64,000 nucleotides of DNA from Eunapius fragilis (Eukaryota; Porifera; Demospongiae; Spongillida; Spongillidae). The stretch is taken from assembly GCA_963681505.1 (NCBI GenBank), contig OY811976.1:7772824-7836823 (forward strand), read 5' to 3'. A model generated the notes under the pieces. The model saw nothing but the letters and a program-made list of their open reading frames with translations. It had not been told where the DNA came from and did not search any database. Below are positions 6,601 to 49,206 of the stretch, piece by piece (positions within the stretch are counted from its first letter, which is position 1; each line of letters starts with the position of its first letter). Both the position numbers and the translations under genes were made by a program.

Positions 6601-9600
6601 NNNNNNNNNNNNNNNNNNNNNNNNNNNNNNNNNNNNNNNNNNNNNNNNNNNNNNNNNNNNNNNNNNNNNNNNNNNNNNNNNNNNNNNNNNNNNNNNNNNN
6701 NNNNNNNNNNNNNNNNNNNNNTGCTTTTTCGTAGACCTGTAACCCCCCTCCACAGCATGCTTTTTCGTAGACCTGTAACCCCCCCCCCCACCCCCGTACA
6801 CACCATGCTTTTTCGTAGACCTGTAAACCCCTCCCCCCCCCCTCCACACCATCCTTTTTCGTAGACCTGTAACCCCCCTCCACACCCCCCCCCCCCCCCC
6901 CCCCCCACTTTGGTATCCGCCCCCGAGTCACGGGATCGTCCTTGTGATCGCAAGCGTGTGACCGCGGTCCTTAGCAAATATTTAACTACCCGTACGGGTT
7001 CTTAATTGCATTTTTGGCGCATACATTCCAATGTGCTACGAAATCCCTATTTTCGCCAGACGTGTCTGGGTACGTGACTACGTCCAGACATGGTTTTTCA
7101 GTGTGGTTTAAAAAAAAACAGGCCAGGTAAGAATCATATGGTTTTGTCCTGGTTACGGTTTTGTCTGAATGTTCAACGGTTTTTGTTTGAGGACATGATC
7201 GTATGTATTCCCACCCATTCCCATGCTAGACATTCAATCCAGGGAGGATTTTTTTTTTTGTTGTTATAAAACATCCTGAGAAACCATGCTGGGACGTTTC
7301 TAACTTTTTCCTGAGAGTAGGGTATGTCAAAATCGCTGTTCATTGCTACGTCATGGTTGCCCCATTGAGCGGATGCCTATCTCATTTATTTACTACTTGT
7401 TAACTGTTTGTTTGCATTACTAAACGATTCGTTATATTTTCATTTCATCCTCTTTCCTTTACATTCTAAAGCGCCATATTTTCCATTTCAATTTTCCGTG
7501 TCCACTGTTCCTGGTTCACCTAGCCAACTGTCTGCTCTGTGGTCTCCACCCATACCAAAGAATGGCATCATCACTGCATACACTGTGTACTGTAACACCT
7601 CTGCCAGTCAGGCATATCCTGAACAGATGATTGGACCAAACGTGGCCACAATCAGATCTGTAGTGAGTGGAACAACACTGACTGCTACAATCACTGGACT
7701 CCTAACACATCTGTTGGAGCAGGGAACAGCTCAGTTATATCTACTGCAAGGACTGGTGGATCAGGTGAGCTATGACATATTTAATCGTCCATTATTAGTA
7801 AACATGTTAAATCCCTTTGTACCTTGACATGACATTTTATTAAATTAAAGTGCAGCAGAGTAAACATGAATATATGAGTACATGAATGATTATTTCAGTT
7901 ACTTTGTGCTTGGTTAGCATACGGTTACTATGACGACTGGCTGGTCGTGGAATGCTACAGCAGGACTCCGGCATTGGCTCTGATTAGCACAAGATTTAAC
8001 CTGCCATAGAGAGCAGACGTGGCCTGTACCTTGGGACAGAGGGTTCTGATAGCAAGGTGTGAGACAAGCCTGTGCTTCAGGATCCCAGCAGCAATAGGTC
8101 ACTACTGCCAAAAGGCACACCCACCCAACCAAGCACTATATTTATTATTATTATTATTTACAATAAATGCCTAAAACAAAACTCCCTAAAAGTCACTAGA
8201 GAAATAAGTGTTCCTCTGATGGAGCCTACATAGCTCCTTTGTACAGCCACTGAAAGGTGCTTGAGTATCACACCCATGTGCTTCTGCACACCATGTTCTC
8301 ACTTTGATGGCTATCAAGTTCGAACCATCATAACACAATGGTAGACATACAGTTAGTTGTAAGTGCACCTGCTTCATCATTGTGCATTGCCATGCTCACG
8401 CAATAATATAGTTATTAAAGGTAGGTTTGGGAAGAAATTATATGTAACTTTTCTGAGAAGGCCGGAGGTTTGTATAAAGAGTCCACTCTTGCAATTCTTC
8501 TGTTACTGAAATGAGCTAGCTTTTAAAAATAGCTTTGTAGGTGATGGATCATAGCTATTCCTTATGCTATAAAGCCCCCTGTTTAATCATGCAGTAACAA
8601 TTGGAAGAAATCACTAACAACAAAAAAAACATGTCTAGCAATGTCACCTTAATGTATTTAAAAATATTAACTTCAAAAGAACTTTAATTTATTCCTTTTA
8701 TTTGCAGCTCCATCATCACCATTGAATTTTTCTGTGTCCACTGTTCCTGGTTCACCTAACCAATTGTTGGCTTTGTGGTCTCCACCCATACCAAAGAATG
8801 GCATCATCACTGCATACACTGTGTACTGTAACACCTCTGCAAATCAGGCATATCCTGAACAGATGATTGGACCAAATGTGTCCACAATCATGTTTGTGGT
8901 GAATGGAACAACACTGACTACTACAATCACTGGACTCAACCCATACACCAACTATGATTGCTATGTGACTGCTAACACAACCACTGGAGCAGGGAACTCC
9001 TCAAGTATACTAACTGCAAGGACTAGTGAATCAGGTGGGTGAATCATCACATCTAAATACAGGTTAGGCATTGAAACCTGGATTTCTGCCAGAACTCTGA
9101 GAACCTTAGGTTCTGTATCGTCCCATAGGGTAGTGAGGCTTAGGGCACTACTATTGAAGTGTTGAACTGGATTCTAAATCTTGTGGATCCCAAAGGTTTT
9201 ATATCTAACCAATTCAGAAAACAGCTATGCCATTCATTTGACCACGCGACATATTCTGATATAACATTGTAATATGCGGATTGTGATGCCATGAGTGATT
9301 GTGCAAGCATGGAACGAGCAAGGTATACCAGTAATTGCCAAGGTCAGCGCATGATGACCATGTTTTATATATAATTATAATTATATTTATATGTATAATA
9401 TAAACCTGTCTATTACTTAGAGGTGTTTGATTGCATTCTTGATGTATTTCTTTGCATACTACTATAATTATGCATAAACGTTTATAATAATGTATAATTA
9501 TAATTATAATATAGCAATGTTCGCGAGCTCGATGGTATGCCGTGTTGCAAATGCAACGGTTTAAACGCTCGCTGCAGCTCGTGCGAATGCGTGAAGCAGA

Positions 9601-12600
9601 ATCGACAGTGTGTAAGTTGTCACGCTGGGAAACATGGTCGCTGCAGAAACACCGTGCTCAACAACCACGTCATGCCCCAGTTGGCCGCTGCTTCTTCTAG
9701 CCGGACGGTAGCCGCCGCTTTGCCTGAGCCTCTTACTGCTTCGTCACCATCTAGAGCTCAATCACCATCAACCTCCCAGTCGCCTACGAGCGCCCAGACG
9801 GCGCCCATCTCATCTCAGCTGTCACAGCAGCTATTCATTTCTAACCCACAGCAGCTGCCTCACCCGCGTCACAGGATACCTCGACGTAATGAATCACATG
9901 AGGATTTCTCCACCACTCATTCACAGCCGGAGGAGCAGCAGAGATCCCCCACGCACTTTTCTCAATCAACCACGAGTTCCCAGATCCCGGGAGTATCTAG
10001 AAAGCGGCGGAAGAAGCATTGTATTGTGGAAGGGTGTCCTGAACATATTGCTCCTTCCATGTGGAAAGCCCACATGACTCTCCATGTCCAGGGTGTATTT
10101 TCTGGGGACGTGCCTAACTTTTGGCTGGAGGAGAATGATCTTTCCATCTGCCACCTATGCCATCAATTGGTTTCCAACAATCGGTTGTCCTCCCACCCAA
10201 GGAAATGTGCTGGTAGTGCTGTGGTTGCTCCGGTTCTTGACAGTGTGTTAGGGGATGTACCACACAACCTGGCTGAGATGAGCCTACCAACCTTTGATGA
10301 CGTGTGCCTCCTTGACCAGCCCACCTTGCGCTTCATCCCATCAAAGTCCCGGCCTGCTTTTGCCCGGGTATTGTCATCTACTTTGAGAAGTGTTATCCTG
10401 GAGAACACAGAGGAGGCATGGCTGAAACTATTCATGCTTCCTAAATGTGTTCTGCCTTCACTTCGACGCAAGGGACGACATGACAAGCCACTGCCAGTGG
10501 ATTCTCTCTGCAACATGTGGTCAGATGACAAACTGGGAGCCCTTTGGTCTTTGGCCAAGAGTCGGTCAGCCAATCGTAATCATCCAGGAGGTGTGTCCAT
10601 CAACAATCGGACAAAGGTCATTGACCAAGCTGTGTCATTAGGCAGATCTGGTATGTTTGGGAAAGCTTGCAGAGTCCTTCAGTCCAGCGGTATTGCCCCA
10701 AATAATGAGACAACGTGGCATCTGTTGAAATCCAAACATCCCAGCTGTCCCACTCCAGTAGCTCCAGCGTCTGACTCTGCCCCTCTCACCCTCGAGCCAG
10801 ATTTCAATATCCTTTCTGTCCTACGTTCCTTCCCCAAGGACACTGCAGCTGGTCCTTCTGGTCTTCGAGTCCAACACCTGCTTGATGTGGCTAGTGTCCC
10901 ACTTCCCACATCCATTTGCTCCTCCCTCAGGCAGTTGGTCAATATCCTGGCAGCTGGAAAGGTACCTACATCTGTGTCTAAGTTCTTGGCTGGAGGCAGC
11001 TTGATTGCCTTGAACAAAAACAAGGAGGGCTGCCCACCAGACATTAGGCCCATCGCAGTGGGGGAGACAATAAGGAGGCTGACTGGGAAGTGCATGTGTG
11101 CCTTGGTGAAGGACAAGGCTACTGAGTTCTTCCAACCCCTGCAACTCGGTGTGGCCTGTCGTGCAGGGGCAGAGAGGGTGGCCCATGCTCTCAGGGGATG
11201 CATTGAAGAGCACTGGATGGACGAGGACTTTGTTGTACTTAAGGTGGACATGAGGAACGCTTTTAATATTGTCTCCAGACAAGCAGTCCTTGATGAGTGT
11301 GCTACTTTTTTCCCTGAGTTGCTACCCTGGGTGTCTTGGTGTTATGGGACCCATCCTCTGCTATGGCACCCTCTTGGCCAGATCAGCTCTGAGTCTGGAG
11401 TGCAGCAGGGTGACCCTTTAGGTCCCTTACTGTTTGCACTAGTCCTCCAGAAGTTGGTATCTAGCCTGGACGCAGATGAGGAGTGTGCTGAAATCCTTCT
11501 CCAAGCTTGGTACCTCGATGATGGAGCTTTGGCTGGCACCCGCCCAGCTGTACTACGTGCCTTACATGTGATTGAGGAGTTGGGTCCTGCATTGGGCCTA
11601 CATGTGAACCTGGCCAAGTGTGAGATGTTCAGCAGACAGGGTAACACATCATTCCCACCGGAGGTGAGGTGCTCACTCCTGCCTAATCTGGACATCCTGG
11701 GTGCTCCAATTGGGGATTATCTACACTGTTCTAAGTTTATCGCTGGGAGGTGTGCTGAGTCCAGGAAGCTACTCTCCGGTCTAGTGGATGTTGCTGCAGT
11801 CGATCTCCAGGTAGCAGTTTCCTTATTGCGCATGTGTGGTAGCTTCTGCAGGATGGTCCACATAGCAAGGGTTACCCCACCAAGCCTGGCCACAGATGCT
11901 CTAAGGTCCTTTGATGAGGAGGTCAAGCAGTGCTTTGTAATGTGCTCCGCCATCAATGTTACCAATGATGCCTGGAGCCAGGCACAGCTAGGACTAAAAT
12001 TTGGGGGTCTGGGTCTTCGCTCCCTCTCTCACCATGCTGCTGCAGCGTTCATTGCCTCCCTGTCATTCTCCGGCTTTGGCAAGGCTGATAATGTTCACCT
12101 AAAACAGGCAGTGGCAATGTTTAACACTCAGGTCCCCCTTTAATGCCATTACAGTCAGTTCTGCTCTGGAGTCTCCCATTCACCAGAAGGTCTTGTCAGG
12201 ATTGATCCAAACCCAACATTTCCACATCTTGTTGGAATCCTCCTCTCCAGCTAACAGAGCTCGCCTCCTGTCAGTGGCTGCTCCTCATGCTTCCTCTTGG
12301 CTATCAGTGGTCCCTTCCCCTGGTTTGGGCTTGCACCTGGAATCGAATGAGTTCCAGATGGCTATTAGGTGGTGGCTGGGGTTAGATACTTCTGGTCGGT
12401 CCATGTGCCCATTCTGCCCCGATACTGCTCTTGATCCTCTTGGTCACCATGCTGTGACCTGCAGGCATGGGGGGGATGTGGTCACACGCCATAATCGTCT
12501 ACGAGATGAGGTATTTGACCTTTGTCGTCGTGCCCACCTAAGTGTGAGTGTGGAGAGAGGTCATGGCCTTACCAGAGATCTTGCCCACACCAGACCTGCT

Positions 12601-15600
12601 GACATCCTCATTGCTGGCTGGGACAGAGGCAAACCTGCGGCACTAGACCTGACCATTACCTCACCACTCTGCTCTGTCATCTTGGGTGAATCATGTCACC
12701 AGGCTGGTGCGGCAGCCCTGGCAGCAGAGACCCGCAAGCTCCACTCCAATGGACCCAAGTGCCAAGAGTTGGGCTGGTCCTGCATCCCATTGGCAGTGGA
12801 GACTTATGGCAATTGGGGCAAGCAGGCTCATGATACCTTCTCCAGGCTGGCATCCTTCCTAGCCATTCACCAGTCTTCCCCCAAGGCAGTAGTTGTGGCT
12901 GAAATTTATGGCCGGTTGAATGTGGTCCTGGTTCGGTCCATTGCTAGAGCCATCCTGGCCAGGGAGCTTCCACCCTCCTAACTTGCTATTAGTAGTTTAG
13001 TTGTGTATGCATTTAAATAAGGTGTTTTTTGTGAATTAAATGTGCATTTATTACTGTTTAAATATAGCTATAAAAATAAACATATAACATAAACACACAC
13101 AACAAAGTTAAACACAAACTCTAGATAGAATGGCCCTAGAGTTTGCTCTGATCAGGGTCAAGCTCAGACTACCATTTATCTGGTTTGTTGTGATAGACTT
13201 AGGCTGCCCCAGTCTAGTGGCCAGTCTTCCTGCAAGTCTAGAGAGACTATGCTGAGCTTCTGGTCCCCATCATCCAAAAGACTCTACCACCAGAGGGATG
13301 CAACCCCAACCTAACTCTCCACATTTTGCATCATTTGCTTCCCTGATCCTGGCATCACACACGCTACTTGAAGGGTTTCAGAATTAAGCGGGGATGTGAC
13401 ACAAAGATCAATATCTGCAGACTTGCCCAACTCCAAGTTAGGGATGAGGATACATTTTTACATTATTGTTATTTTAATAATCATTAGAGAATAATCGAAC
13501 ACATCATACTACCAACCTATACCTAGACACAAAATGCCATTATTAAAATGAAGACGACCTTTTAACTAGCCAATAAAGCCCTAGCATTGGCTATGACCAG
13601 GGCAATGCTTAATCTTCCATATAGTCCTGACACTGCAATCTTGTACTTGCAAATGTTTATTTCCATTTGTATATATATATAGTATGTACCAGGCTATGCT
13701 CCATTTGCCAATACAAGTTAATACTATGCAGAATTATGTACCTTGAACTTACAATTTCAATGTCGACTTTAGCATTTTCATATGTAAAACTTTGTATTTG
13801 CAATTTTTTACTAGGAAATGCTCGACATATTTAAGGGGACTGAGTTAGAACTTGCATTGATATTTCTTGTAGTGTATGCTTATCAATATTACATACTAAT
13901 TCATGGAACTGAATGTAAAAAGGAGGGATTCTAAATGAAAAAAAAGTGGGGGGGGGGGGGTGTGCGGAGGAGGGGATTCTAAGTGCCAGAAGATGGTCTC
14001 AGTGCTCTAAGTGCTCAAATAATCCCCCCATCTGGCACTTAAAATCCCTATTGGCACTTCTATTGTGTTTAGATACCTGGAACAAACCAATCATATTACA
14101 TTAGCTATTGTCTAAGGCAAGCTGAAAATAAATAGTAAGCATGTAATAAATCCCTTTGAATGTCTTTGCAACCAGTCCTCAGCAATGGGGGTTGAGCTAT
14201 ACACCTATGGATGAGGCTCAAAATAGCACATGATCCTCACAACCTCATGCAACTGTTATTAAGTCAAAACAAATCCTTCTCAATGTAACATGTTTGAAAG
14301 AATTTCTAAGTTGATACCTTTCATTTTAACTTTGTTTTATTGTTGTGAGAGAGATGTGTATTGGTTTTTCTGCGATGCCTCTAGATAAGGTTTGATTGAA
14401 AACAAAGATGGTGATGATGATGATGCTTATAATGAGGCCATACTGTAACAGGATATATGACCGGATGGATGTTGACACAATTATTGCTGAGTAAATGAGT
14501 GTGGTTGCAATGGTGGTAACAATGATGGCAGTGTTACAGTTACTTATTAATTACAAATTTTGACTGATTTGGATTTTAATTTATCACTTATAATATCATT
14601 TACAGTTCCATCATCACCGTTGCAATTTTCTGTGTTAACTGTTGCTACTGGCTCGCCCTACGAACTGTCTGCTCAGTGGAAACTACCCATAACAAAAAAT
14701 GGCATCATCACTGCATACACTGTGTACTGTAAGACCTCTGCCAGTCAGACATATCCTGAACAGATGATTGGCCCAAATGTGACCATTGTCAGCTCTGCGG
14801 TGAGTGGGGCAATACTGACTGCTACAATCACTGGACTCAACCCATACACCAACTATGACTGCTATGTGACAGCTAGCACATCAGTTGGTGAAGGGAACTA
14901 CTCAAATATAGCTACAGCAAGGACTGCTGAATCAGGTGAGCAATAATGAATTCCCACCGAAAACTACCTGCATGGAAATTACAAGTACCGTAAAGTATCG
15001 TATTTAGGCTTCCTTCCACTCAAGTGAGCCAAAATTTATAGTCTCTGTCTTCCATTTTCTGCATGCCTAAACTATTTACATCAATCATTGGCAAAGAGAT
15101 TTATTGCCACGGAGAAATGAGTACAGGGGCGGCTCGGAACAGTGGACTTTCACACCTCGGGAACAGTGGACTTTTGGCACCATTGTTATTTTAGGAATCG
15201 CTAACGTAAACATGGTTTAGGCGTTGCGGGATGGGAAAGATTACGATAGCGTCAGCATTGCGTAACATTGTGCAATTTGTCACATGCTATTGACGTTCTT
15301 TAATCATGACGCTCTTAAAATCTACAAGCTTCATATCTACAAGCTGAACGCACATGTTCCTTCATTGCATGCATATCACGCGCCTACATCGATCAACATG
15401 CGCCGGTTGATCTTACCTATGACGGTGTGCGCGGCAAAACAATCACGCGAGGCATGTTTAGTTAAGGCCCATTTTGTGTATAGCCTACACTGCATTCCGG
15501 GCAGCCTGGTTTTATGGTCCTAATAAAACTTTGAAGTTTTATTTGTTTAGTATTTGGAGCAAATGGCTTGTGACATTGTGCAATGTAGGCGCTATATTAA

Positions 15601-17974
15601 TCTTTTCCCATCCCGCAATCCCCAATCATGCACGATTACTTTTGCAATCATATCTGGGAACCTAAAACAACAATGAATGATGTCAAAAATCCACTGTTCC
15701 GAGGTGTGAAAGTCCACTGTTCCGAGCCGCCCCTGGGCAGTGTCAGAGGGAGGTTTGTATAAAGCTAGGACAGCCATTCCCATCCTATATGCAAGGTTAT
15801 TATAACTCATATTGTTAACAGAATAAGAGGGAGAACGTATGCATACATCCTACAATTAGGGGATTTTGTTGTTCAAATCCCCCCCCCCCCCCCCCCCCCC
15901 CCCCTTGCACAATGTAATTTTGAAATTGAAATTGTTTTTCTTTTTGGCTGCAGGATCTGCATGTAAATTTTGTGTGGGTTGGTTGCAATATGCATGCTGA
16001 AAACTTGAAGTTGGCAATGCTTACAGCTAACCTGCATGTGCTAATGTTTTCATCCTTTTGCCCCATTGAGAATACAATAAAAATCTAGATCGAGGCAGCG
16101 AAAAAGGACCTAGCGCATATTATAAAAATTTCAAGGAAGGAGCATCAAAGTCCACGCGTGCAATAAAAATGTACGCGTGTTTAAAAAATTCGGACCCTGT
16201 AACTCTATGGTGGACAGGCTAATTTCCAGTGCGTAAGAAAGAAGTTGTAGAGGACATAGGTGTCTCTTTGAATACGAAATAAGACAAAATATGCGCTAGG
16301 TCCCTTTTCGCTGCCTCGACCCCATATTTATATACCAGTAAATATAAACATTCTCTCTGAGAAAGTTGGTGGGATATAGGTTTTGCAGGCAAAGAGTATA
16401 CTGGTGTAAAAAGCAAGGAAACAAGTTTTATCAGAAGGGAAAATGTAATAGTCCTATATTTAGCACACTTCGACTAAGGCATATGCTGTTTCTGTGCTAA
16501 CTATAGGACAATTACGTTTTCCCTTCTGATAAACTTGTTTCCTTGCTTTTTACACCAGTATACTATTTGCCTGCAAAACCTATATCCCACCAACTTTCTC
16601 AGAGAGAATGTTTTTATTTACTTGTTTCCTTAATTTTTTTAACACCCAAATCACTGTTGCATCGCAGGTTTCCCCACTTTCATTTAACCGATTAAAATCA
16701 ATCCAGACGTATTGTGAAAATTTTCTAGGTACTTTTGCTTAATTAGACTTGATAAGACCGTATAGGCTTTTAGGCTTTTGTGTATCAAAGCTAACATCGA
16801 CTATGGCGAGTCCTCTAGCAAATTCTAAAGCTATTGGTGCAATTTTCATTGCTTAAAAGTGTTCCTGTCCCGAGTTATGAGTTCCCAAGACGAAGCAGAA
16901 GCAGGAGACGACCCGCCCATTATTTATTTTTTGAAGGGGAACGAGGACAGCAGTATTTTTCGTTCTCGACAACCACGCGGTTCTGCGACGTGAAACAAAC
17001 ACGAAACTTCTCAGTTTTGACTTCTAGATCGATTGCCGCAACAAGTTAGACGATCCGATCGTCGGGAGCGAAGCTACGGTAGGGTCGCGGGATTTTAATT
17101 AAATTCATAGTCGGGGTCAAAACCTATATGGAAGTCTCTAGCGAGACTTCCGATATATATATGGGAAAGTTTCCGAGAAAAGGGACCTAGCGTATATTAT
17201 AATAAAGCATAATAAAAATGCATTACGTTTGAAATGCTATAACTTCCGAACAGTTAACGCTATCGTCTTCCTATTTTCAGCACTTCATACTACACCATTT
17301 CTCTATGGCAAAATACATTTTGGGATCTTGAACATGCTCCATGCCAGTGTCGCGATATTCGGTACCCCTTGGGGTTCAAACTCCCCATATATTTCGGCAG
17401 GAAATCTCAATTCATTTCAAAATTGGTTTATACGTAGAGGGATCCTGTGCCTATCGATTTGTCCTGTTCGTTAATTTTTACTTTACCCGTTACAAAGATA
17501 TTGCTTTGCAAAGTAGGTACATATTTCCCGCTCGATTCGCGCCATTCTATGGCCAGAGACAGCATGAATATTCAACTCTTCCTGTTGATAACCTATTACC
17601 ACGCCTACAAGACCCTATTGCGTGATGGCGTTGCACATCGATCGTTGATTTGCTGTACAGCATACGGTAAGATTGTCAACGTTCTTCGATGTAGGCACAC
17701 ATCCAGATAAGGCAGCATGGCGCCGTATAACACGAGTGGAGACGAGCCGACTCGTTAATTTGGTTGCAACGGTTAGGCCGGTACGATAACCACGATATTC
17801 AGGTCGAGGACGAGGACAGCGTGCATGGTTGAGAGCGGTGATGCTGATGACGATGGTAATTTGGCAATTTGGATGGTTATGATTGACGACAACGATGTTG
17901 ACAATAAATTTGATGACGGCGAGTCCAAGGTGAAAGTGATGGTGGTGATGAAGGTGTTAATTGCAATGGAAGTA

Positions 17975-18034
<60 letters not shown>

Positions 18035-21000
18035 GTAGTGGTGGTGGTGGCTCAGGTGTGCGTTAAAAACCCGTCCAGCTGAATGTCTACCTCACTAGAG
18101 AAGGTTACTGCAAAACAGCTGCTCAATGAAGTACGGTGATATGCTCACATTATAGAGATTGGCCAAGAAAACCAGAATGGTGCTGAGACAAGGGCAATCA
18201 GATGGCACCATCAAGGTTTGTGTGTGTATGGCGCATCACCCTTCTGTAGTCAGGGGAAAAAGGTAGTGTATTATACGCTTTACTATTTGCCTTTCATGTA
18301 GTTTTAACTCACACATAGGTCCTCATCTTGGTTTACACGTCCTTGTGAACTTTTGCACACACTTGCATTGTTACTAGTACACCATTGTATGGCGTATTCT
18401 TGTACAAACACACACATACATGCACATACATATCTTCACCCATATACACAACCATTTTGTTCGATTTAACTGCTTGTATGTGATCTGTACCCCACTACTC
18501 TAGACAGCCATGCAGTGGACACTACTATAAGACAGCTGTGGAGTGGACACTACTGTAGATAGCTGTGGAGTGGACACTACTGTTGACAGCTGTGGAGTGA
18601 ACACTACTGTAGACAGCTGTGGAGTGGACACTACTATATAGACAGCTGTGGAGTGGACACTGCTGTAGACAGCTGTGGAGTGGACACTACTGTAGACAGC
18701 TGTGGAGTGGACACTACTGTTGACAGCTGTGGAGTGGACACTACTGTTCACAGCTGTAGAGTGGACACTACTGCTGTAGAGTGGACACTACTATATAGAC
18801 AGCTGTAGAGTGGACACTACTGTAGACAGCTGTGGAGTGGACACTACTGTAGACAGCTGAGGAGTGGACACTACTGTAGACAGCTGTGAAGTGGACACTA
18901 CTGTAGACAGCTGTGGAGTGGACACTACTGTAGACAGCTGTGGAGTGGACACTACTGTAGACAGCTGTGACGTGGACACTACTGTAGACAGCTGTGGAGT
19001 GGACGCTACTGTAGACAGCTGTGGAGTGGACACTATTATTCCTGCTGTACATGCTTGTTCTATTACATTTTTAAATACATACCTCTGGAGGTTTATTAAC
19101 GTGCCTGGGCCTTGCATCCTGAAAACATTTCCTACGTATGTAAACTTTACCACGGGCCCTGACCAACCCAAATCAGTCAGAGATAGGGCTAGTAATGATA
19201 TTTACAACTCAAACTGGTGCGTTTTAAGCAATGAATATCATTACTAGCTCTCTATACTGATTGGTAAGGTCGAAGGCTGACCAGATAAAATTGGATTGCT
19301 GTACATACTTGTACAGGTACAGGAACTGCAGTTGTATACTTCGCACAACAATCTTAGGAAGGTGGTACGGTGGTAAGGGTTTTCCAATGGTTTTGAGGTG
19401 ATCTTGAGGAATGGGTTCAAGCAGAGAAATGATCACGAGTAGCTATTTCTTAAAGATCACTTGAACACCTTTGTTTAACCTTACTAGTATCCTATGCCTG
19501 TTGAGTCAAGTCAATGCAACCTGAGCTGTTTCTGACCTTCCTAGTGCCTGACCTTCTAAACCTAATGATAGCCAGTAACAATATTCATTACTTGAAGTAT
19601 AAACGCTTGAATTGTGATTACCATTACTAGCCCTATCTCTTACTGATTTGGGTTGGTCAGGGCCCGTGGTAAGGTTTATATAGGTAGGAAATGTTCTCAG
19701 AATGCAAGGCGCCCAGAAACCTCCAGAGGTATGTACTTTACACATATGATACGAACAAGCATGTACAGCAGGAATTACAGTTGATAACGTTCAAAAAGGT
19801 GTTCAGGTAATCTGCAAGAAATAGCTACTAGCATATATAACACGTTCTGGGTTGGGTCCCTTTCACAACTGTCTGCTGCATTTAGCTCATCTGACATTAG
19901 AGTTGTCTGTTATAGTAAATCACTCCACAGCCTGCAGTAAGGTCTCCTTCGTGGCTGTCTGCTCCACTGACCACTCCACAGTTGTTGACTGTAGTGCATA
20001 CTCCAAAGCTGTCTGCCTGCTCCAGGACAGCTACATGTATCTGCCACAGAGTCTACTCTGCATATGTCTACTGCACGGTACACTTGCCATACTAAAGTGG
20101 ACCCACGCCAAACAGCTGTGGTATTCAGCTGTGGAGTGGATGCTTTTGCAGTCAGCTAAGGAGTAACCACAGACCACTATGATGGCATGGACACAGCATA
20201 GGGTTGACAACGCTACAGGCATGGCGTAGACCTTATAGCCAACAGTCATGGAGTACTCTACAGCTGTCTACTTTTGTATGTGGGGACTCATAGCTTAGAT
20301 GTCTGCAGTAATGTAGTTTGTGTCGACTTCACTGCTGTTTGCTGCAGGTTCTTTTGGCTATGACTCCATAATCTGCCATATGGTATACTCCATAGCACTC
20401 CGTTATGGGGTACCGATAGCTGTCTGCAAGTCAGGGTACACTTAAAAACAGCTGTCGGCAGTAGTTTCCATTCGACAGCTGTCTACGGTAGTGTCCACTC
20501 TACAGCTGTCTACAGACTACAGTAGCGTCCACTTCACAGCTGTCTACAGTAGTGTCTACTCTACAGCTGTCTACAGTAGTGTCCACTTCACAGCTGTCTA
20601 CAGTAGTGTCCACTCCACAGCTGTCTACAGTAGTGTCCACTCCACAGCTGTCTACAGTAGTGTCCACTCCACAGCTGTCTACAGTAGTGTCCACTTCACA
20701 GCTTTCTACACTAGTGTCCACTCCACAGCTGTCTACAGTAGTGTCCACTGCATGGCTGTCTACAGTAGTGTCCACTCCACAGCTGTCGATATAGTAGTGT
20801 TCACTCCACAGCTGTCTACAGTAGTGTCCACTCCACAGCTGTCTATGTAGTAGTGTCCACTCTACAGCTGTCTACAGTAGTGTCCACTCCACAGCTGTCA
20901 ATATAGTAGCGTTCACTCTACAGCTGTCAACAGTAGTGTCCACTCCACAGCTGTCTATGTAGTAGTGTCCACTTTACAGCTGTCTACAGTAGTGTCCACT

Positions 21001-24000
21001 CCACAGCTGTCTACAGTAGTGTCCACTCCACAGCTGTCTACAGTAGTGTCCACTCCACAGCTGTCTACAGTAGTGTCCACTTCACAGCTGTCGACAGTAG
21101 TGTCCACTCTACAGCTGTCTACAGTAGTGTCCACTCCACAGCTGTCAATATAGTAGCGTTCACTCTACAGCTGTCTACAGTAGTGTCCACTCCACAGCTG
21201 TCTATGTAGTAGTGTCCACTTTACAGCTGTCTACAGTAGTGTCCACTCCACAGCTGTCTACAGTAGTGTCCACTCCACAGCTGTCTACAGTAGTGTCCAC
21301 TCCACAGCTGTCTACAGTAGTGTCCACTCCACAGCTGTCGATATAGTAGCGTTCACTCTAAAGCTGTCTACAGTAGTGTCCACTCCACAGCTGTCTATGT
21401 AGTAGTGTCCACTTTACAGCTGTCTACACTAGTGTCCACTCCACAGCTGTCTACAGTAGTGTCCACTCCACAGCTGTCTACAGTAGTGTCCACTCCACAG
21501 CTGTCTACAGTAGTGTCCACTCCACAGCTGTCTACAGTAGTGTCCACTCCACAGCTGTCTACAGTAGTGTCCACTTCACAGCTGTCGACAGTAGTGTCCA
21601 CTCCACAGCTGTCTACAGTAGTGTCCACTCCACAGCTGTCGATATAGTAGCGTTCACTCTACAGCTGTCTATATAGTAGTGTTCACTCTACAGCTGTCTA
21701 TGTAGTAGTGCCCAATCCACAGCTGTCTACAGTAGTGTCCACTCCACAGCTGTCGACATAGTAGCGTTCACTCTACAGCTGTCTATATGTAGTGTTCACT
21801 CTACAGCTGTCTACAGTAGTCTCCACTCCACAGCTGTCTATGTAGTAGTGTCCACTGTACAGCTGTCTACAGTAGTGTCCACTCCACAGCTGTCTACATT
21901 AGTGTCCACTCCACAGCTGTCTACAGTAGTGTCCACTCCACAGCTGTCAATATAGTAGTGCTCACTCTACAGCTGTCTACAGTAGTTTCCACTCCACAGC
22001 TGTCTACATTAGTGTCCACTCCATAGCTGTCTACAGTAGTGTCCACTCCACAGCTGTCAATATAGTAGTGCTCACTCTACAGCTGTCTACAGTAGTGTCT
22101 ACTCCACAGCTGTCTACATTAGTGTCCACTCCATAGCTGTCTATAGAGTAGTGTCCACTCCACAGCTGTCTATATAGTAGTGTCCACTCTACAGCTATCT
22201 ACAGTAGTGTCCACTCCACAGCTGTCTACAATAGTGTCCACTCCACAGCTATCTATAGAGTAGTGTCCACTCCACAGCTGTCTACAGTAGTGTCCACTCC
22301 ACAGCTGTCTATATAGTAGTGTCCACTCTACAGCTATCTACAGTAGTGTCCACTCCACAGCTGTCTACAGTAGTGTCCACTCCACAGCTGTCGATATAGT
22401 AGCGTTCACTCTACAGCTGTCTACAGTAGTGTCCACTCCACAGCTGTCTATGTAGTAGTGTCCACTTTACAGCTGTCTACAGTAGTGTCCACTCCACAGC
22501 TGTCTACAGTAGTGTCCACTCCACAGCTGTCTACAGTAGTGTCCACTCCACAGCTGTCAATATAGTAGTGCTCACTCTACAGCTGTCTACAGTAGTGTCC
22601 ACTCCACAGCTGTCTACATTAGTGTCCAGTCCATAGCTGTCTACAGTATAGTGTCCACTCCACAGCTGTCTATATAGTAGTGTCCACTCTACAGCTGTCT
22701 ACAGTAGTGTCCACTCCACAGCTGTCTATATAGTAGTGTCCACTCTACAGCTATCTACAGTAGTGTCCACTCCACAGCTGTCTACAGTAGTGTCCACTCC
22801 ACAGCTGTCGATAAAGTAGCGTTCACTCTACAGCTGTCTACAGTAGTGTCCACTCCACAGCTGTCTATGTAGTAGTGTCCACTTTACAGCTGTCTACAGT
22901 AGTGTCCACTCCACAGCTGTCTACAGTAGTGTCCACTCCACAGCTGTCTACAGTAGTGTCCACTTCACAGCTGTCTACAGTAGTGTCCACTCCACAGCTG
23001 TCTACAGTAGTGTCCACTCCACAGCTGTCTACAGTAGTGTCCACTTCACAGCTGTCGACAGTAGTGTCCACTCCACAGCTGTCTACAGTAGTGTCCACTC
23101 CACAGCTGTCGATATAGTAGTGTTCACTCCACAGCTGTATACAGTAGTGTCCACTCCACAGCTGTCTATGTAGTAGTGTCCACTCTACAGCTGTCTACAG
23201 TAGTGTCCACTCCACAGCTGTCTACAGTAGTGTCTACTCCACAGCTGTCTACATTAGTGTCCACTCCACAGCTGTCTATAGAGTAGTGTCCACTCCACAG
23301 CTGTCTACAGTAGAGTCCACTCCACAGCTGTCTATATAGTAGTGTCCACTCTACAGCTATCTACAGTAGTGTCCACTCTGCAGCTGTCTACAGTAGTGTC
23401 CACTCCACAGCTGTCTACAGTAGTGTCCACTCTACAGCTGTCTACAGTACTGTCCACTCTGCAGCTGTCTACAGTAGTGTCCACTCCACAGCTGTCTACA
23501 GTAGTGTTCACTCCACAGCTGTCTACAATAGTGTCCACTCTACAGCTGTCTACAGTAGTGTCCACTCCACAGCTGTCTACAGTAGTGTCCACTCCACAGC
23601 TGTCTACAATAGTGTCCACTCTACAGCTGTCTACAGTAGTGTCCACTCCACAGCTGTCTACGGTAGTGTCCACTCCACAGCTGTCTACAGTAATGTCCAC
23701 TCCACAGCTATCTACAGTAGTGTCCACTCCACAGCTGTCTACTGTAGTGTCCACTCCACAGCTATCTACAGTAGTGTCCACTCCACAGCTGTCTTATAGT
23801 AGTGTTCACTGCATGGCTGTCTAGAGTAGTGCATGGGGTACAGATCACATACAAGCAGTTAAATGCTTGTGTATATGGGTGAAGATATGAATATGCATGT
23901 GTGTGTGTGTTTGTACAAGAATACGCCATACATTGGTGTACTAGTAACAATGCAAGTGTGTGCAAAAGTTCACAAGGACGTGTAAACCAAGATGAGGACC

Positions 24001-27000
24001 TATGTGTGAGTTAAAACTACATGAAAGGCAAATAGTAAAGCGTATAATACACTACCTTTTTCCCCTGACTACAGAAGGGTGATGCGCCATACACACACAA
24101 ACCTTGATGGTGCCATCTGATTGCCCTTGTCTCAGCACCATTCTGGTTTTCTTGGCCAATCTCTATAATGTGAGCATATCACCGTACTTCATTGAGCAGC
24201 TGTTTTGCAGTAACCTTCTCTAGTGAGGTAGACATTCAGCTGGACAGGTTTTTCTAGTTTTAACGCACACCTGAGCCACCACCACCACTACCATCATCAT
24301 CATCATCATCATCATCATTACTTCCATTGCAATTAACACCTTCATCACCACCATCACTTTCACCTTGGACTCGCCGTCATCAAATTTATTGTCAACATCG
24401 TTGTCGTCAATCATAACCATCCAAATTGCCAAATTACCATCGTCATCAGCATCACCGCTCTCAACCATGCACGCTGTCCTCGTCCTCGACCTGAATATCG
24501 TGGTTATCGTACCGGCCTTAGTAACCGTTGCAACCAAATTAACGAGTCGGCTCGTTTCCACCCGTGTTATAGGCGCCATGCTGCCTTATCTGGATGTGTG
24601 CCTACATCGAAGAACGTTCAATCTTACCGTATGCTGTACAGCAAATCAACGATCGATGTGCAACGCCATCACGCAATAGGGTCTTGTAGGCGTGGTAATA
24701 GGTTATCAACAGGAAGAGTTGAATATTCATGCTGTCTCTGGCCATAGAATGGCGCGAATCGAGCGGGAAATATGTACCTACTTTGCAAAGCAATATCTTT
24801 GTAACGGGTAAAGTAAAAATTAACGAACAGGACAAATCGATAGGCACAGGATCCCTCTACGTATAAACCAATTTTGAAATGAATTGAGATTTCCTGCCGA
24901 AATATATGGGGAGTTTGAACCCCAAGGGGTACCGAACATCGCGACACTGGCTTGGAGCATGTTCAAGATCCCAAAATGTATTTTAACATAGAAAAATGGT
25001 GTAGTATGAAGTGCTGAAAATAGGAAGACGATAGCGTTAACCGTTCGGAAGTTATAGTATTTCAAACGTGGTGCATTTTTATTATGCTTTATTATAATAT
25101 ACGCTAGGTCCCTTTTCTCGGAAACTTTCCCATATATATATATGGGACAGTGTCCAGCAAAATCACCCTTATGGTACTTTATCAAAAATTCCAGGACAAG
25201 CAAAAGAAAAGTAACGCTCGCATTGAAATGTATGGCTAATTATAAATTCAGTGCCTAATAACGTTGTGATAGATAGACCAATTTAGGATGCGTAAGGACC
25301 ATTTGACAGAAGCTCATGGGTGTTCAGGGAAAATCAAAAAATTTGAAAACTTGAAAAACTAGCCAGAAGGGTGATTCTGCTGGACACTGTCCCATATATA
25401 TATATAATTATATAATTATATGGGACGGTGTCCAGCAAAATCAGAAATTTGAAAAGAAAATATAAAACCGTTGTGAAGATATGTTGCTTTGCGTAACGTA
25501 CAATTTTTATAGTGATAAAATTAAAACTCCAGAAGGGTGATTTTGCTGGACACCGTCCCATATATAATTATATGGGACGGTGTCCAGCAAAATCACCCTT
25601 CTGGAGTTTTAATTTTATCACTATAAAAATTGTACGTTACGCAAAGCAACATATCTTCACAACGGTTTTATATTTTCTTTTCAAATTTCGTTCACTTGTT
25701 CACACATCAGTTCTCTCTGTGCAAACCGATTTTGGTGCTCTAGATATTTTCCATGCCATGGTTACAAAGGTCTCTAACCCAATGGGTTAAGATTCCACAT
25801 TTCTCCAGATACAAGTGACGATAACATGTCAAAATTGGAGTGTACATAGAAGGGTCCTGTAGCTACTGATTTCTGCAGATCGTTAAGTTTTTTCTTATCC
25901 GTTACGGAGATATGGATTTTCAAAGTAATTCGACATTTCGCGCCACTCACCCTATTCCAATATGCCATTATGTAATGGTCACGCCCTTTAAATTTGAAGT
26001 TAGGTATTAAATGAACTCCGCTTTGATCGTTCTACGTGGTGTATAAGCGATCGTACCTCGTACGCTATGTTTCAACATAAAACAGTATCGTACGTTCACA
26101 TGTATCGCTTATGATGGATGCTGTGAATATCCATGGTAGTTTATATTGTGCACCCTTTTTCTATATCTGCTCAGTTTGTGGCATGTACATGTAAGCATGC
26201 ACGTACCATGCCTTCTAATCATGGGGCCACCTTCTCCACCCTCTACACCCTCTACACTAGTCTGGGGACCAGATGACTTGCTTGCGACAGTCAGTTATCT
26301 GGTACACAAACTGCAGTACTTACCTTTACTTAGTATGGCATATCTCTCTAGACCATTCATATTCACTGCCTTTCTTTCTATCTTACCTCCTCCTCCTGCT
26401 CCTCATCTCCCTCCACCTCTTCCTATCTTCCTTCATCCACCCATCCTCCTCCCCTCTCTTCCTCTCCTCCTCCCCTCCTCCTCCTCCCTCCTCCTCCTCC
26501 TCCTCCTCCCCTCCTCTTCCTCCTACTTTTACTCCCTCTCATTTTCCCTCCTACCTTCCTTCCTATTACACCTAACACCCCTCCTACTCCTTTCTTTTGA
26601 TTGCATCCACACCTCACCCTCCTCCTCATCCTCCTACTTCTACCTTCCTACCTGTTGCATCCTCCCCTCCTCCTTTCATTTTTCCCGTTGCATCCACCCC
26701 CACCTTCTACTCCCCCTCCTCTTCCCCCTCCTCCTCTTCCTATCTTCCTTCATCCACCCATCCTCTTCCTCCCCTCCTCTCCCCTCCTCCTCCTCCCTCC
26801 TCCTCCTCTTACTCCCTCTCATTTTCCCTCCTACCTTCCTTCCTATTACACCTACCCCTCCCCCCTCCTTTCGTTTGATTGCATGCAAACCTCCCCTCCT
26901 CCTCCTCATCCTCCTACTTCTATCTTCCTACCCGTTGCATCCTTCCCTCCTCCCCCTCCTCCTTCCATTCTTCTTCCCGTTGCATCCACTCCCCACCTTC

Positions 27001-30000
27001 TCTTCCCTCTCCTCTACCTCCTTCTCCTCCTCTTCCTATCGTCTGTCATCCACCCATCCTCCTCCTCCCCTCCTCCTCTCCTCCTCCTCTCCTTCCCTCC
27101 ACCTCCCTCCCTCCCCCTCCTCCTCCTATCTTCATCCACCCATCCTCCTCCCCTCCTCCTCTCCTCCTCCTCTCCTTCCTACCACCTCCCTCCCCCTCCT
27201 CCTATCTTCATCCACCCATCCTCCTCCCCTCCTCCTCCTCTCCGTCTCCCCTCCTCCTCCCTCCACCTCCTCTCCTCCTCCCTCCTCCCCTCCACCTCCC
27301 TCCTCTTCCCCTCCTCCCTCCTCTGCCCCACCTCCTCCCTCCTCCTCCCCTCCTCCCTCCTCCTCCCCTCCTCCCTCCTCCTCCCCTCCTCCCTCCTCCT
27401 CCCCTCCTCCCTCCTCCTCCCCTCCTCCCTCCTCCTCCCCTCCTCCCTCCTCCTCCCCTCCTCCCTCCTCCTCCCCTCCTCCCTCCTCCACCCTCCCCCT
27501 CCTTTCCACCTCTCCTCCTTCTCTCCTCCTCCTCCCCTCCTCCTCCCCTCCCCTACTTCTACCTTCCCACCGGTTGCATCCTCCCCTCCTCCTTCCATTC
27601 TTTCCGTTGCATCCACCCCCTACCTTCTCCTTCCCCTCCTCTACCTCCTTCCCTCTTCTCCCTCCTCCTCTTCCTATCTTCCTTCATCCACCCATCCTCC
27701 TCCTCCTCTCTTTCTCCTCCCCTCCTCCTCTTATCCACCCATCCTTCTCCCCTCCTCCTCCCCTCTTCCTCTTTTCCTCCTCTCCTCCTCCTCCTCCTCT
27801 TACTCTCTCTCATTTTACCTCCTACCTCCTTCTCCTCTTCCTATCTTCCTTCATCTACACACCCTCCTCCCCCCTCTCCCTCCTCCTCTTACTCCCTCTC
27901 ATTTCCCTCCTACCTTCCTCCTATTACACCTACCCCTTCCCCTCCTCCTTTCTTTTGATTTCATCTACACCTCCCCTCCTCCTCCTCCTATGTCTACCTT
28001 CCTACCTATTGCATCCTCCCCTCCTCCTCCTTCCATTCTTCCCGTTGCATCCACCCCCACCTTCTCCTCCTCTTTCTCTACCTCCTTTTCCTCCTCTCCC
28101 TCCTCTTCCTATCTTCCTGCATCCACCCATCCTCCTCCTCCTCTCCTCCTCCTCCCCTCCCCCTCCTCCTCCTATTTTCCTTCATCCACCCATCCTCCTC
28201 CCCTCCTCCTCTACTCCCCTCCTCCTCCTCTTACTCCCTCTCATTTCCCTCCTACCTTCCTTCCTATTACACCTACCCCTTCCCCTCCTCCTTTCTTTTG
28301 ATTTCATCCACACCTCCCCCTCCTCCTCATCCTCCTACTTCTACCTTCTTACCCGTTGCATCCTCCCCTCCACCGCCTCTTCCTTCTTCCATTCTTCCAG
28401 TTGCACCCACCCCTCTCCCTCCTTTACCTCCTCGTGTTCCTCCTCCCCATCCTCTACCTCCCCATCTTCTACCTCCCTATCCTCTACCTCCCCACCTCCC
28501 TCGTCCTCTACCTCCTCCTTCTCCCCCTCCTCTACTTCCTGCTCCCCTCCTCTACCTTCTCCCCCTCCTCTACCTCCTCCCCTCTCCTCTACCTCCTCCT
28601 CCTCTGTCTCCTCCTTCCCTTCCACCTTCTTGGGTAGGGAGGGTATTTTATATTAACCACTTTGTTTCAAAGGAAGTGTTCATCTCGATATATATGTTTT
28701 CACCTAGGAGTCAGCGGAATGTATTTTTTGGGATGTGCAAACTACATGCAACTAGAAAAGGCTATTATAATACAGAGCCTGTCTGAACTCTAGAGCTCTA
28801 CACAAGGGAATGTATGTTGGTATAAGCCTTTTATGAATATTATTATCCATTGTCAGTACAGATTGTGGGTGGCCAGTGGTTTACATAGACAAGCAAGCAT
28901 GGTAGAATGGGTCCATGCTTGTACATGCTCTACATGGAAGTTAGAACAAGTAGTTTTGAACTACATGCGTGCATGCCATAGCTCTAAGGTCTTTCCAAAA
29001 ACAAAGTACACTATAAGTAAGGAGGGGGGGGGGGGGGACATCTGATGTCCCTGACTAATTGTTGGCAGTGCCTACTAGGTTGTTGCATCATCACCTTTTT
29101 AGTTGTAAAATAACCCATGAGAGGTTATATTATATATGCTGAAGTGCCAAAATGATTCCGGGTGCTTGCAAATTTACAACACATTGACTTACAATACCAA
29201 TAGTTTTAAAGCTGGATAAATAAGGAATTGCATCTTCCGACACATGTCTCTTATCATTTATTTATGCAATGGAAAGGAAGGTACAAAGAGGAGGAGGAGG
29301 CGGAGGAGGGGGAGGAGAAGGAGGTAGAGGATGAGGAGAAGGTGGGGGTGGATGCAACGGGAAGAATGGAAGGAGAAGGAGGGGGAGGAGAGGGAGGATG
29401 CAACAGGTAGGAAGGTAAAAGTAGGAGGATGAGGAAGAAGAGGTGTGGATGCAATCAAAAGAAAGGAGGAGGGGGAGGGGTAGGTGGTAGAAGGGAAAAT
29501 GAGAGGGAGTAAGAGGAGGAGGGGAGGAGGGAGGAGAAGGAGGAGGAGGGGGGAGGGAGGGAGGAGGAGGATGGGTGGATGAAGGAAGATAGGAAGAGGA
29601 GGAAGAGGAGGAGAAGGAGGTAGAGGAGGGGGAGGAGAAGGTGGGGTGGATGTAACGGGAAGGAGGAGGAGGAGGAGGAGGAGGGAAGGATGCAACAGGT
29701 AGGAAGGTAGAAGTAGGAGGATGAGGAGGAGGGGGGGGAGGTGTGGATGCAATCAAAACAAAGGAGGAGGGGGAGGGGTAGGTGGTAGAAGGGAAAATGA
29801 GAGGGAGTAAGAGGAGGAGGGGAGGAGGGAGGAGAAGGAGGGAAGGAGGAGGAGGGGAGAGGGAGGGAGGAGGAGGATGGGTGGATGAAGGAAGATAGGA
29901 AGAGGAGGAGAAGGAGGTAGAGGAGGGGGAGGAGAAGGTGGGGTGGATGTAAGGAGGAGGAGGAGGAGGAGGAGGAGGGAAGGATGCAACAGGTAGGAAG

Positions 30001-33000
30001 GTAGAAGTAGGAGGATGAGGAGGAGGGGGATCGAGGAGGGAGGAGGAGGAGAGGAGGAGGGATGAGGAGGGGAGGAGGAGGGAGGAGGAGGGGAGGAGGA
30101 GGGAGGAGGAGGGGAGGAGGAGGGAGGAGGAGGGGTGGAGGAGGAGAGGAGGAGGAGAGGCAGAGGGGAGGAGGAGGAGAGGCAGAGGGGAGGGGAGGAG
30201 GGGAAGGGGTAGGTGTAATAGGAAGGAAGGTAGGAGGGAAATGAGAGGGAGTAAGAGGAGGAGGAGGGAAGGAGGATGGGTGGATGAAGGAAGATAGGAG
30301 GAGGTGGAGGGGAGGAGGAGGAGGGGAGGAGGAGGATGGGTGGATGCAGGAAGATAGGAAGAGGAGGGAGAGGAGGAAAAGGAGGTAGAGGAAGACGAGG
30401 AGAAGACATAGGAGGATGAGAAGGAGGTGGAGGGGAGGTGTAGATGAAATCAAAAGAAAGGAGGAGGGGGAGGGGTAGGTGTAATAGGAAGGAAGGTAGG
30501 AGGGAAATGAGAGGGAGTAAGAGGAGGAGGGAGAGGGGAGGAGGAGGGTGTGTAGATGAAGGAAGATAGGAGGAGAAGAAGGAGGTAGGAGGTAAAATGA
30601 GAGGGAGTAAGAGGAGGAGGAGGAGGAGAGGAGGAAGAGAGGAAGAGGGGAGGAGGAGGAGGAGAGGAGGAGGATGGGTGGATAAAGGAAGATAGGAGGA
30701 GGAGGGAGAAGAGGGAAGGAGGTAGAGGAGGGGAAGGAGAAGGTAGGGGGTGGATGCAACGGAAAGAATGGAAGGAGGGGGGGAGGATGCAACTGGTGGT
30801 AAGGTAGAAGTAGGGAGGGGAGGAGGAGGGGAGGAGGAGGGGAGGAGGAGGGGAGGAGGAGGGAGGAGGAGGGGAGGAGGAGGAAAGGAGGAGGGAGGAG
30901 GGGAGGAGGAGGGAGGAGGAGGGGAGGAGGAGGAAAGGAGGAGGGAGGAGGGGAGGAGGAGGGAGGAGGAGGGGAGGAGGAGGAAAGGAGGAGGGAGGAG
31001 GGGAGGAGGAGGGAGGAGGAGGGGAGGAGGTGGGGCGAAGGAGGAAGAAGGGGAGGGGAGGGAGGTGGAGGGGAGGAGGAGGGAGGAGGAGAGGAGGTGG
31101 AGGGAGGAGGAGGGGAGACGGAGAGGAGGAGGAGGGGAGGAGGATGGGTGGATGAAGATAGGAGGAGGAGGGGGAGGGAGGTGGAGGGAAGGAGAGGAGG
31201 AGGAGAGGAGGAGGGGAGGAGGAGGATGGGTGGATGACAGACAATAGGAAGAGGAAGAGAAGGTGGGGAGTGGATGCAAGGGGAAGAAGAATGGAAGGAG
31301 GAGGGGGAGGAGGGAAGGATGCAACAGGTAGGAAGATAGATGGAGGATGAGGAGGAGGAGGGGAGGTTTGCATGCAATCAAACGAAAGGAGGGGGGAGGG
31401 GTAGGTGTAATAGGAAGGAAGGTAGGAGGGGAAATGAGAGGGAGTAAGAGGAGGAGGAGGGAGGAGGAGGGGAGAGGAGGGGAGGAAGAGGATGGGTGGA
31501 TGAAGGAAGATAGGAAGAGGAGGAGGGGGAAGAGGAGGGGGAGTAGAAGGTGGGGGTGGATGCAACGGGAAAAATGAAAGGAGGAGGGGAGGATGCAACA
31601 GGTAGGAAGGTAGAAGTAGGAGGATGAGGAGGAGGGTGAGGTGTGGATGCAATCAAAAGAAAGGAGTAGGAGGGGTGTTAGGTGTAATAGGAAGGAAGGT
31701 AGGAGGGAAAATGAGAGGGAGTAAAAGTAGGAGGAAGAGGAGGGGAGGAGGAGGAGGAGGAGGGAGGAGGAGGAGGGGAGGAGGAGAGGAAGAGAGGGGA
31801 GGAGGATGGGTGGATGAAGGAAGATAGGAAGAGGTGGAGGGAGATGAGGAGCAGGAGGAGGAGGTAAGATAGAAAGAAAGGCAGTGAATATGAATGGTCT
31901 AGAGAGATATGCCATACTAAGTAAAGGTAAGTACTGCAGTTTGTGTACCAGATAACTGACTGTCGCAAGCAAGTCATCTGGTCCCCAGACTAGTGTAGAG
32001 GGTGTAGAGGGTGGAGAAGGTGGCCCCATGATTAGAAGGCATGGTACGTGCATGCTTACATGTACATGCCACAAACTGAGCAGATATAGAAAAAGGGTGC
32101 ACAATATAAACTACCATGGATATTCACAGCATCCATCATAAGCGATACATGTGAACGTACGATACTGTTTTATGTTGAAACATAGCGTACGAGGTACGAT
32201 CGCTTATACACCACGTAGAACGATCAAAGCGGAGTTCATTTAATACCTAACTTCAAATTTAAAGGGCGTGACCATTACATAATGGCATATTGGAATAGGG
32301 TGAGTGGCGCGAAATGTCGAATTACTTTGAAAATCCATATCTCCGTAACGGATAAGAAAAAACTTAACGATCTGCAGAAATCAGTAGCTACAGGACCCTT
32401 CTATGTACACTCCAAATTTGACATGTTATCGTCACTCGTATCTGGAGAAATGTGGAATCTTAACCCATTGGGTTAGAGACCTTTGTAACCATGGCATGGA
32501 AAATATCTAGAGCACCAAAATCGGTTTGCACAGAGAGAACTGATGTGTGAACAAGTGAACGAAATTTGAAAAGAAAATATAAAACCGTTGTGAAGATATG
32601 TTGCTTTGCGTAACGTACAATTTTTATAGTGATAAAATTAAAACTCCAGAAGGGTGATTTTGCTGGACACCGTACCATATGGGACAGTGTCCAGCTAAAT
32701 CACCCTTATGGTACTTTATCAAAATTTCCAGAACAAGCAAAAGAAAAGTAACGCTCGCATTGAAATGTATGGCTAATTATAAATTCAGTGCCTAATAACT
32801 TTGTGATGGATAGTCCGATTTAGGATGCGTAAGGACCATTTGACAGAAGCTCATGGGTGTTCAAGGAAAATCAAAAAATTTGAAAACTTGAAAAACTAGC
32901 CAGAAGGGTGATTCTGCTGGACACCGTCCCATATATATATAAATTATATACATATATCTAAGGAAATAAACATGCCACAAAAGAATTTCATTTTTACTAT

Positions 33001-43479: not shown

Positions 43480-43709
43480 AGACCGCAATGCGTAGGCTAA
43501 GAACATTCAACGGTTTCTACTATTTCGTAAGACGTGAGTCGCTACCATAATTGAGTGACGTAAATTTTTAACAACAATATGAACGCCCACCTATTGCTGT
43601 GACACGGCCCACAGTCCTACAATATCAGACAATCAGATCACCTTATCAGTGCCATTCAGTGGGCCGCTCAGTGTTGCATGTGCTGTCTTCCTGTGTACGC
43701 CGCATAAAA
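43480..43709 (+). promoter_or_regulatory. Shared 5' flank of the seven-pass receptor genes
   Basis: The stretch with GCGTAGGCTAAGAACA...GTTTCTAC...GACGTGAGT and CAATCAGATCAC is repeated before the second copy (48968-49206) and again near 63020. The part nearest the ATG (CAGATCA...GCCA) is also before the third copy (about 57838-57884). Conservation suggests it includes the promoter and 5' UTR, but no TATA box or initiator is evident. Confidence 0.5.
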
Positions 43710-48967: not shown

Positions 48968-49206
48968 TTGTGCATGCAATAGAGACAACGCGTAGGCTAA
49001 GAACACTCAACTGTTTCTACTCTTATTTCTTGAGACGTGAGTATTTGAAGTGACGTACATTTTCAACCACAATATGTGAACGCCCACCTACAGCTGTGAC
49101 ACCGCCCACAGTCCTACAATATCAGACAATCAGATCACGTGATCAGTGCCATTCAGTGGGCCGCTCAGTGTTGCCTGTGCTGTCTTCTTGTGTACGCTGC
49201 ATAAAA

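Follow-up and report, generated by a model that had tools for sequence, protein, structure and literature searches.

FB1, an element within a 64-kb stretch of the genome of the sponge Eunapius fragilis (contig OY811976.1, positions 7,772,824 to 7,836,823; the whole of this stretch of 64,000 nucleotides is called the window below), is very probably a non-autonomous foldback transposon whose family has been active recently and whose movement most likely depends on a DUF7869 transposase from full-length relatives with the same termini. An earlier note, made from the letters alone, had placed it at 17162..25132 and read it as a foldback element with satellite arms; the element stands, with its limits refined to 17163-25131 (7,969 bp). 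It starts GGGAAAGTTTCC at 17163 and finishes GGAAACTTTCCC at 25131; inward from either end the reading is GGGAAAGTTTCCGAG, and ATAT is directly outside both. The note's inverse ends, with outer arms of ~1.3 kb pairing with a few percent difference, are borne out by an identity of 98.67% (1,265 of 1,282 aligned bases, with 60 gap columns in addition), or of 94.9% across 1,333 columns by blastn, where gaps are counted. The inner arms are indeed the same satellite in opposite orientation, about 19 versus 125 copies by the note's count and, by Tandem Repeats Finder, 20.2 copies of a 27-bp unit on the left versus 122.7 reverse-complement copies on the right. FB1 itself has no coding capacity: with the satellite arrays excluded, its only frames of at least 130 amino acids, stop to stop, are two of 136 and 134 that overlap one another within one arm. 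That no enzyme is encoded was therefore correct for FB1; it was not for the family, as partners with the same termini encode a DUF7869 protein and a SAE2/CtIP-like one.

Is the terminus a peculiarity of this locus? The note had proposed looking for the terminus elsewhere, for empty sites and for a coding partner sharing the ends, and all three were found. A 41-base pattern with at most three mismatches locates the family terminus at 76 places in the 219-Mb genome versus none for the reversed control pattern, and 28 elements, FB1 included, were read end to end, their sizes being 0.4-20.6 kb. In all 28 an inverse match begins at both ends, its length being 159 bp in the smallest element and reaching 3.4 kb. 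The 27-bp satellite is present in both orientations in 19 of them; a 317-321-bp satellite is present in five, of which C16 and C9 have it in each arm and C23b, C5b and C1c show one array only; and the four without satellite are three miniature elements (405-826 bp) and C10, which contains a nested DDE_Tnp_1_7 transposase frame that we take to be piggyBac-like. From reading alone, C2a has an LTR (long terminal repeat)-like frame and C8 a hAT-like one. Satellite copies per arm vary from about 7 (C20, left) up to 277 (C5a, right). Of the 19 elements whose arms have the 27-bp satellite, 17 contain the FB1 spacer, C4 having just half of it, and about 236 bp of it has an additional inverse-orientation match, at ~83%, in several relatives. 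In C23c (C23:1320057-1326899) there is no match to the 1.4-kb spacer and the satellite arrays meet head to head, giving a nearly uninterrupted palindrome with arms of ~3.1 kb. Between the arms of C4 (C4:9459557-9476465) lies part of a protein kinase (Pfam Pkinase, E=8.6e-15), possibly captured host sequence.

The 4-bp flanks are identical in 25 of the 28 elements, ATAT in 21, AAAT in two (C1c and C4b) and ACAT in two (C4c and C8), and in the remaining three, C23a, C10 and C11m, there is a one-base mismatch. Because the pairs AAAT/AAAT and ACAT/ACAT are non-palindromic, the duplication length is 4 bp. C9 and C2a, which belong to different subfamilies, are inserted at one and the same AT run within a dispersed repeat; if the flanks of C9 are joined through one ATAT, they are continuous in all 40 scored copies of that repeat (69 candidates), with 87-95% identity.

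What, then, could move an element without genes? The coding partners with FB1-type termini and the 317-bp satellite are C23b (C23:1586649-1596712, 10.1 kb) and C9 (C9:3435539-3448462, 12.9 kb); in a third relative, C16 (C16:4741355-4753308), the DUF7869 gene is broken. A DUF7869 frame of 851 codons is intact in C9 and C23b, with six amino-acid differences between them (nonsynonymous and synonymous divergence, dN and dS, 0.0030 and 0.0119), and since the inner 4 kb of the two elements differ at just 19 of 4,000 bases the movement is recent. Pfam matches DUF7869 in the C23b/C9-type protein at E=6.6e-18 and leaves a C2H2 finger at the C-terminus under its cut-off; in a scan of three proteins DUF7869 is the sole family over the cut-off, C2H2 fingers and others falling below. 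Searches of NCBIfam and of viral contigs gave no match, and among solved structures nothing came below E 0.18 for the putative transposases or the SAE2-like protein. An independent pointer to function is a second family, with an 891-codon frame ~49% identical to the 851-codon one and present at five loci with practically equal scores (51% identity in the aligned part at the single locus of the five that was read). Its terminal inverted repeat (TIR) is homologous to that of FB1 up to the final base, at 70-78%; the protein match begins 578 bp from the terminus in four of the five loci, no terminus being listed for the fifth; and its elements with both ends paired, at C3, C6 and C7, are ~16.4-16.5 kb. 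Because two families share both homologous ends and homologous proteins, the DUF7869 protein is the likely transposase. All six close DUF7869 copies have the family terminus within ~14 kb, three at both ends and three at one. Three aspartates in the aligned region, Asp337, Asp416 and Asp458, do not vary among the three DUF7869 paralogs compared, and we would guess that they are a catalytic triad. A Pfam domain of unknown function, with no mention found in the open-licence literature searched, is so linked, in each of two separate families, with the ends of transposons.

The second gene of the relatives runs divergently from the DUF7869 gene and has five exons and four GT-AG introns of 53-80 bases, its predicted product being a 261-amino-acid frame that is open, with identical splice sites, in C23b and C9. 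In C23b the four introns fall within C23:1593186-1594220; in C16 the gene could be followed except for its 3′ end, for which no match was found. The C-terminal 86 residues of the C23b-type protein score 25.1 bits with Pfam SAE2 (E=3.8e-5, cut-off 19.8), and stretches chosen from the C-terminus at three other loci reach 32.1, 26.2 and 22.4 bits, no other family being listed. The best of these comes from C3:610518-611150, where a two-exon match, unbroken and in single copy, could be a host CtIP gene or a domesticated transposon copy. Near the C-terminus the proteins read PPDSDPR or PPDTDPR, with S/T-D at what is presumably the position of the activating cyclin-dependent kinase (CDK) site of human CtIP, T847-P; by eye, the N-terminus resembles a coiled coil. 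The gene adjoins all six close transposase copies (sequence read for three), and no match to it is near any of the five second-family DUF7869 loci, so it is not required by every DUF7869 transposon. For its last exon, C23b compared with four other loci over 44-54 codons gives dN 0.15-0.19 and dS 1.2-2.0 (dN/dS 0.09-0.16), with dS near saturation and some of the four loci perhaps host genes. Among the listed literature matches, all open-licence papers, there is no transposon that encodes SAE2/CtIP, which is weak evidence of novelty.

A number of results weigh against the picture drawn so far. The length of the AT run varies among the 40 unoccupied sites, so what they establish is insertion and not the exact bases duplicated. 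The subfamilies with 27-bp and with 317-bp satellite match only over about the outer 390 bp, at 86-88%, and among the elements with 27-bp arms none that bears the genes was found; mobilisation of one subfamily by the other is accordingly a proposal. Of the 90 DUF7869 matches in the genome, linkage to these termini was checked for 11 loci. AlphaFold models of the three DUF7869 paralogs, from two runs, had a mean pLDDT (predicted local distance difference test) of 34.7 and 38.5, too poor for recognition of an RNase H fold. The full 261-residue protein scores 19.5 bits with Pfam SAE2, just below the 19.8 cut-off, and the SAE2 model PF08573, run against the genome, gave nothing at E<=0.001, the control genomes being likewise silent; at a lax threshold it gave nine places with E 0.06-2.1, all also matched by the transposon SAE2-like protein, and one control, E. 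coli, also matched below the cut-off. For CtIP_N an exon-by-exon search had no match over the cut-off in the genome, nor in the controls. As to the arms, over the outer 500 bp identity within an element exceeds the best match to another element in only 9 of the 25 elements compared (the three miniature ones of the 28 being excluded), and no claim of gene conversion between arms is made.

How do other explanations fare? One could read FB1 as a palindrome arisen by chance or as a misassembly, since long inverted arms and satellites are difficult to assemble. However, shuffling FB1 20 times gave an inverted match of 38 bases at the longest, and an artefact is made unlikely by the number of separate copies whose 4-bp flanks agree, together with the unoccupied sites; we regard this explanation as most improbable. 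It could also be supposed that the DUF7869 and SAE2-like genes are cargo or nested insertions and that another, unseen transposase moves the element. The genes of elements with GGGAAAG ends do sit between the arms and not immediately beside the ends; transposons nested in these elements do occur too, as in C10, C2a and C8. Against this are the second family, in which the DUF7869 match keeps a fixed distance from a homologous terminus, the family terminus near every close DUF7869 copy, and the result of comparing the C23b gene region with itself by blastn, where all inverse matches past the inner edge of the arms are <=18 bases. The cargo explanation is in consequence unlikely, and a DUF7869 transposase is preferred.

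More serious is the thought that the SAE2-like gene was picked up from the host as a fragment and has no role in transposition. Transposons do capture host genes, the kinase fragment in C4 being a case at hand, and the second family lacks the gene near all of its five loci. Against capture are the gene's presence beside all six close transposase copies, its open frame and identical splice sites in C23b and C9, and the low last-exon dN/dS given above, with its provisos on saturation and host loci. We hold capture to be possible, at about the same modest level as the specific role proposed for the protein below.

With DUF7869 as the transposase, how might FB1 have come to be where it is? From comparison of the sequences we suggest that the enzyme, supplied by the relatives, acts in trans on elements that have kept their ends, FB1 included. 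It would recognise the GGGAAAG ends and insert at A(T/A/C)AT, favouring (AT)n and leaving the 4-bp duplication. FB1 has retained the ends without the genes, its 1.4-kb spacer occupying the position of the relatives' two genes, and its arms have probably been enlarged through separate expansion of the 27-bp satellite. Long palindromes are fragile DNA, and among the machineries that attack hairpins is Mre11-Rad50 together with Sae2/CtIP (PMC6315862, PMC8053094). The most plausible partner of the SAE2-like protein is the host's Mre11-Rad50 nuclease, the two acting where the giant arms give rise to breaks or hairpins. However, the yeast Mre11 complex attacks hairpins only where the loop is <9 nucleotides (PMC8053094), so that FB1, with its 1.4-kb spacer, is a poor candidate for simple hairpin cutting; it would be at least as likely that the protein serves in end resection and in the repair of donor sites. 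Tentatively, the lineage may carry its own CtIP/Sae2 freed from CDK cell-cycle control, and through it use the host Mre11, open arm hairpins and steer donor breaks to resection and copying repair, which would refill the old site. A foldback transposon with its own Sae2/CtIP relative makes two matters testable: the survival of inverted arms of kilobase length, and a possible control by transposons over the repair of their excision breaks. Should the conjecture be true, elements could keep kilobase arms that cells normally break or lose, and there would be a case of a transposon-encoded DNA end-resection factor.

Satellite-armed foldback elements are already known. 'Foldback' refers to architecture and not to a superfamily, and the FB1 family has all that goes with it: terminal inverted arms, tandem repeats in the arms, and a target duplication with an unoccupied site. 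The earlier comparison with Galileo holds, and Tetris is also built alike, with the 4-bp duplication and the DUF7869 protein setting the FB1 family apart from both. Tetris of Drosophila virilis (PMC4079207) is likewise non-autonomous, its long inverted arms having an outer flanking domain followed by tandem repeats of variable number; its middle is non-coding, and it has ends in common with a miniature relative. Its tandem repeat is ~220 bp, its TIRs are up to 1.7 kb and its duplications 8-10 bp, in contrast to 4 bp and to a single arm of up to 277 satellite copies in the FB1 family; the part of PMC4079207 covered names no coding partner for it, whereas the FB1 family has one. Galileo, of the P superfamily in Drosophila (PMC3573991), shares internally repetitive long TIRs with repeat number unequal between arms, and non-autonomous copies that are mostly arms beside others that code. 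It differs in its 7-bp flanks, P-type transposase and TIRs of up to ~1.25 kb. Membership of the P superfamily was rejected on the duplication, 4 bp where 7 bp is expected, and as no P-type THAP transposase was met in the three proteins scanned. Mutator (Mutator-like elements, MULE) would leave 7-12 bp, again not 4; Kolobok and piggyBac would leave TTAA, and what is found is ATAT, AAAT or ACAT; the 2-bp TA duplication of Tc1/mariner is ruled out by the non-palindromic pairs. Sola has a DDD transposase, 4-bp duplications, lengths of >15 kb at most and TIRs of 11-1124 bp (PMC10741241), and is alike in duplication, long TIRs and size range, a likeness drawn from its description. KolobokP (PMC9587614) is also a eukaryotic DNA transposon with a second DNA-processing protein beside the transposase. 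With the SAE2/CtIP/Ctp1 cofactors (PMC6315862) the transposon protein shares the conserved C-terminal domain and the RNR/RHR-type motif, in its case RHK; it differs from them in having only 261 amino acids, in being transposon-borne and in that no CtIP_N was detected.

Features of FB1 in the window (positions are those of the window)
Feature	Positions	Strand	Basis
Left 4-bp target duplication copy, ATAT	17159..17162	.	4-bp flanks identical in 25/28 elements
Left outer arm, terminus GGGAAAGTTTCCGAG	17163..18490	+	Outermost ~390 bp common to gene-bearing subfamily, 86-88% identity
Left inner arm, 20.2 copies of 27-bp satellite CACTACTGTAGACAGCTGTGGAGTGGA	18493..19035	+	Tandem Repeats Finder
Non-coding spacer between arms, 1.41 kb	19036..20447	+	Recurs in 17/19 elements with 27-bp arms
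Right inner arm, 122.7 copies of 27-bp satellite, opposite orientation	20448..23831	-	Tandem Repeats Finder
Right outer arm, reverse complement of left outer arm	23836..25131	-	Arm comparison
Right 4-bp target duplication copy, ATAT	25132..25135	.	4-bp flanks identical in 25/28 elements

FB1 has company. A second foldback element, at 25574-32676 of the window, has ends GGGACGGTGTCC and ATAT on both sides; its outer arms are 955 bp at 99%, and its inner arms are polypyrimidine/polypurine, (CCT)n and (GAG)n. From 17163 to 32930 five elements stand end to end with only short AT-rich junctions between, in the order FB1, a 250-bp element (25144-25393), one of 138 bp (25422-25559), the second foldback and a 250-bp element (32681-32930). 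As flanks of C16, C6c, C5b and C23c also match the 250-bp element, insertion beside existing ends recurs. Elsewhere in the window, by eye, frames of 868 and 262 amino acids at 9537-12981 are non-LTR retrotransposon-like, and three related membrane-protein frames, at 43599-44498, 49096-49689 and 57885-58793, are seven-helix receptor-like.

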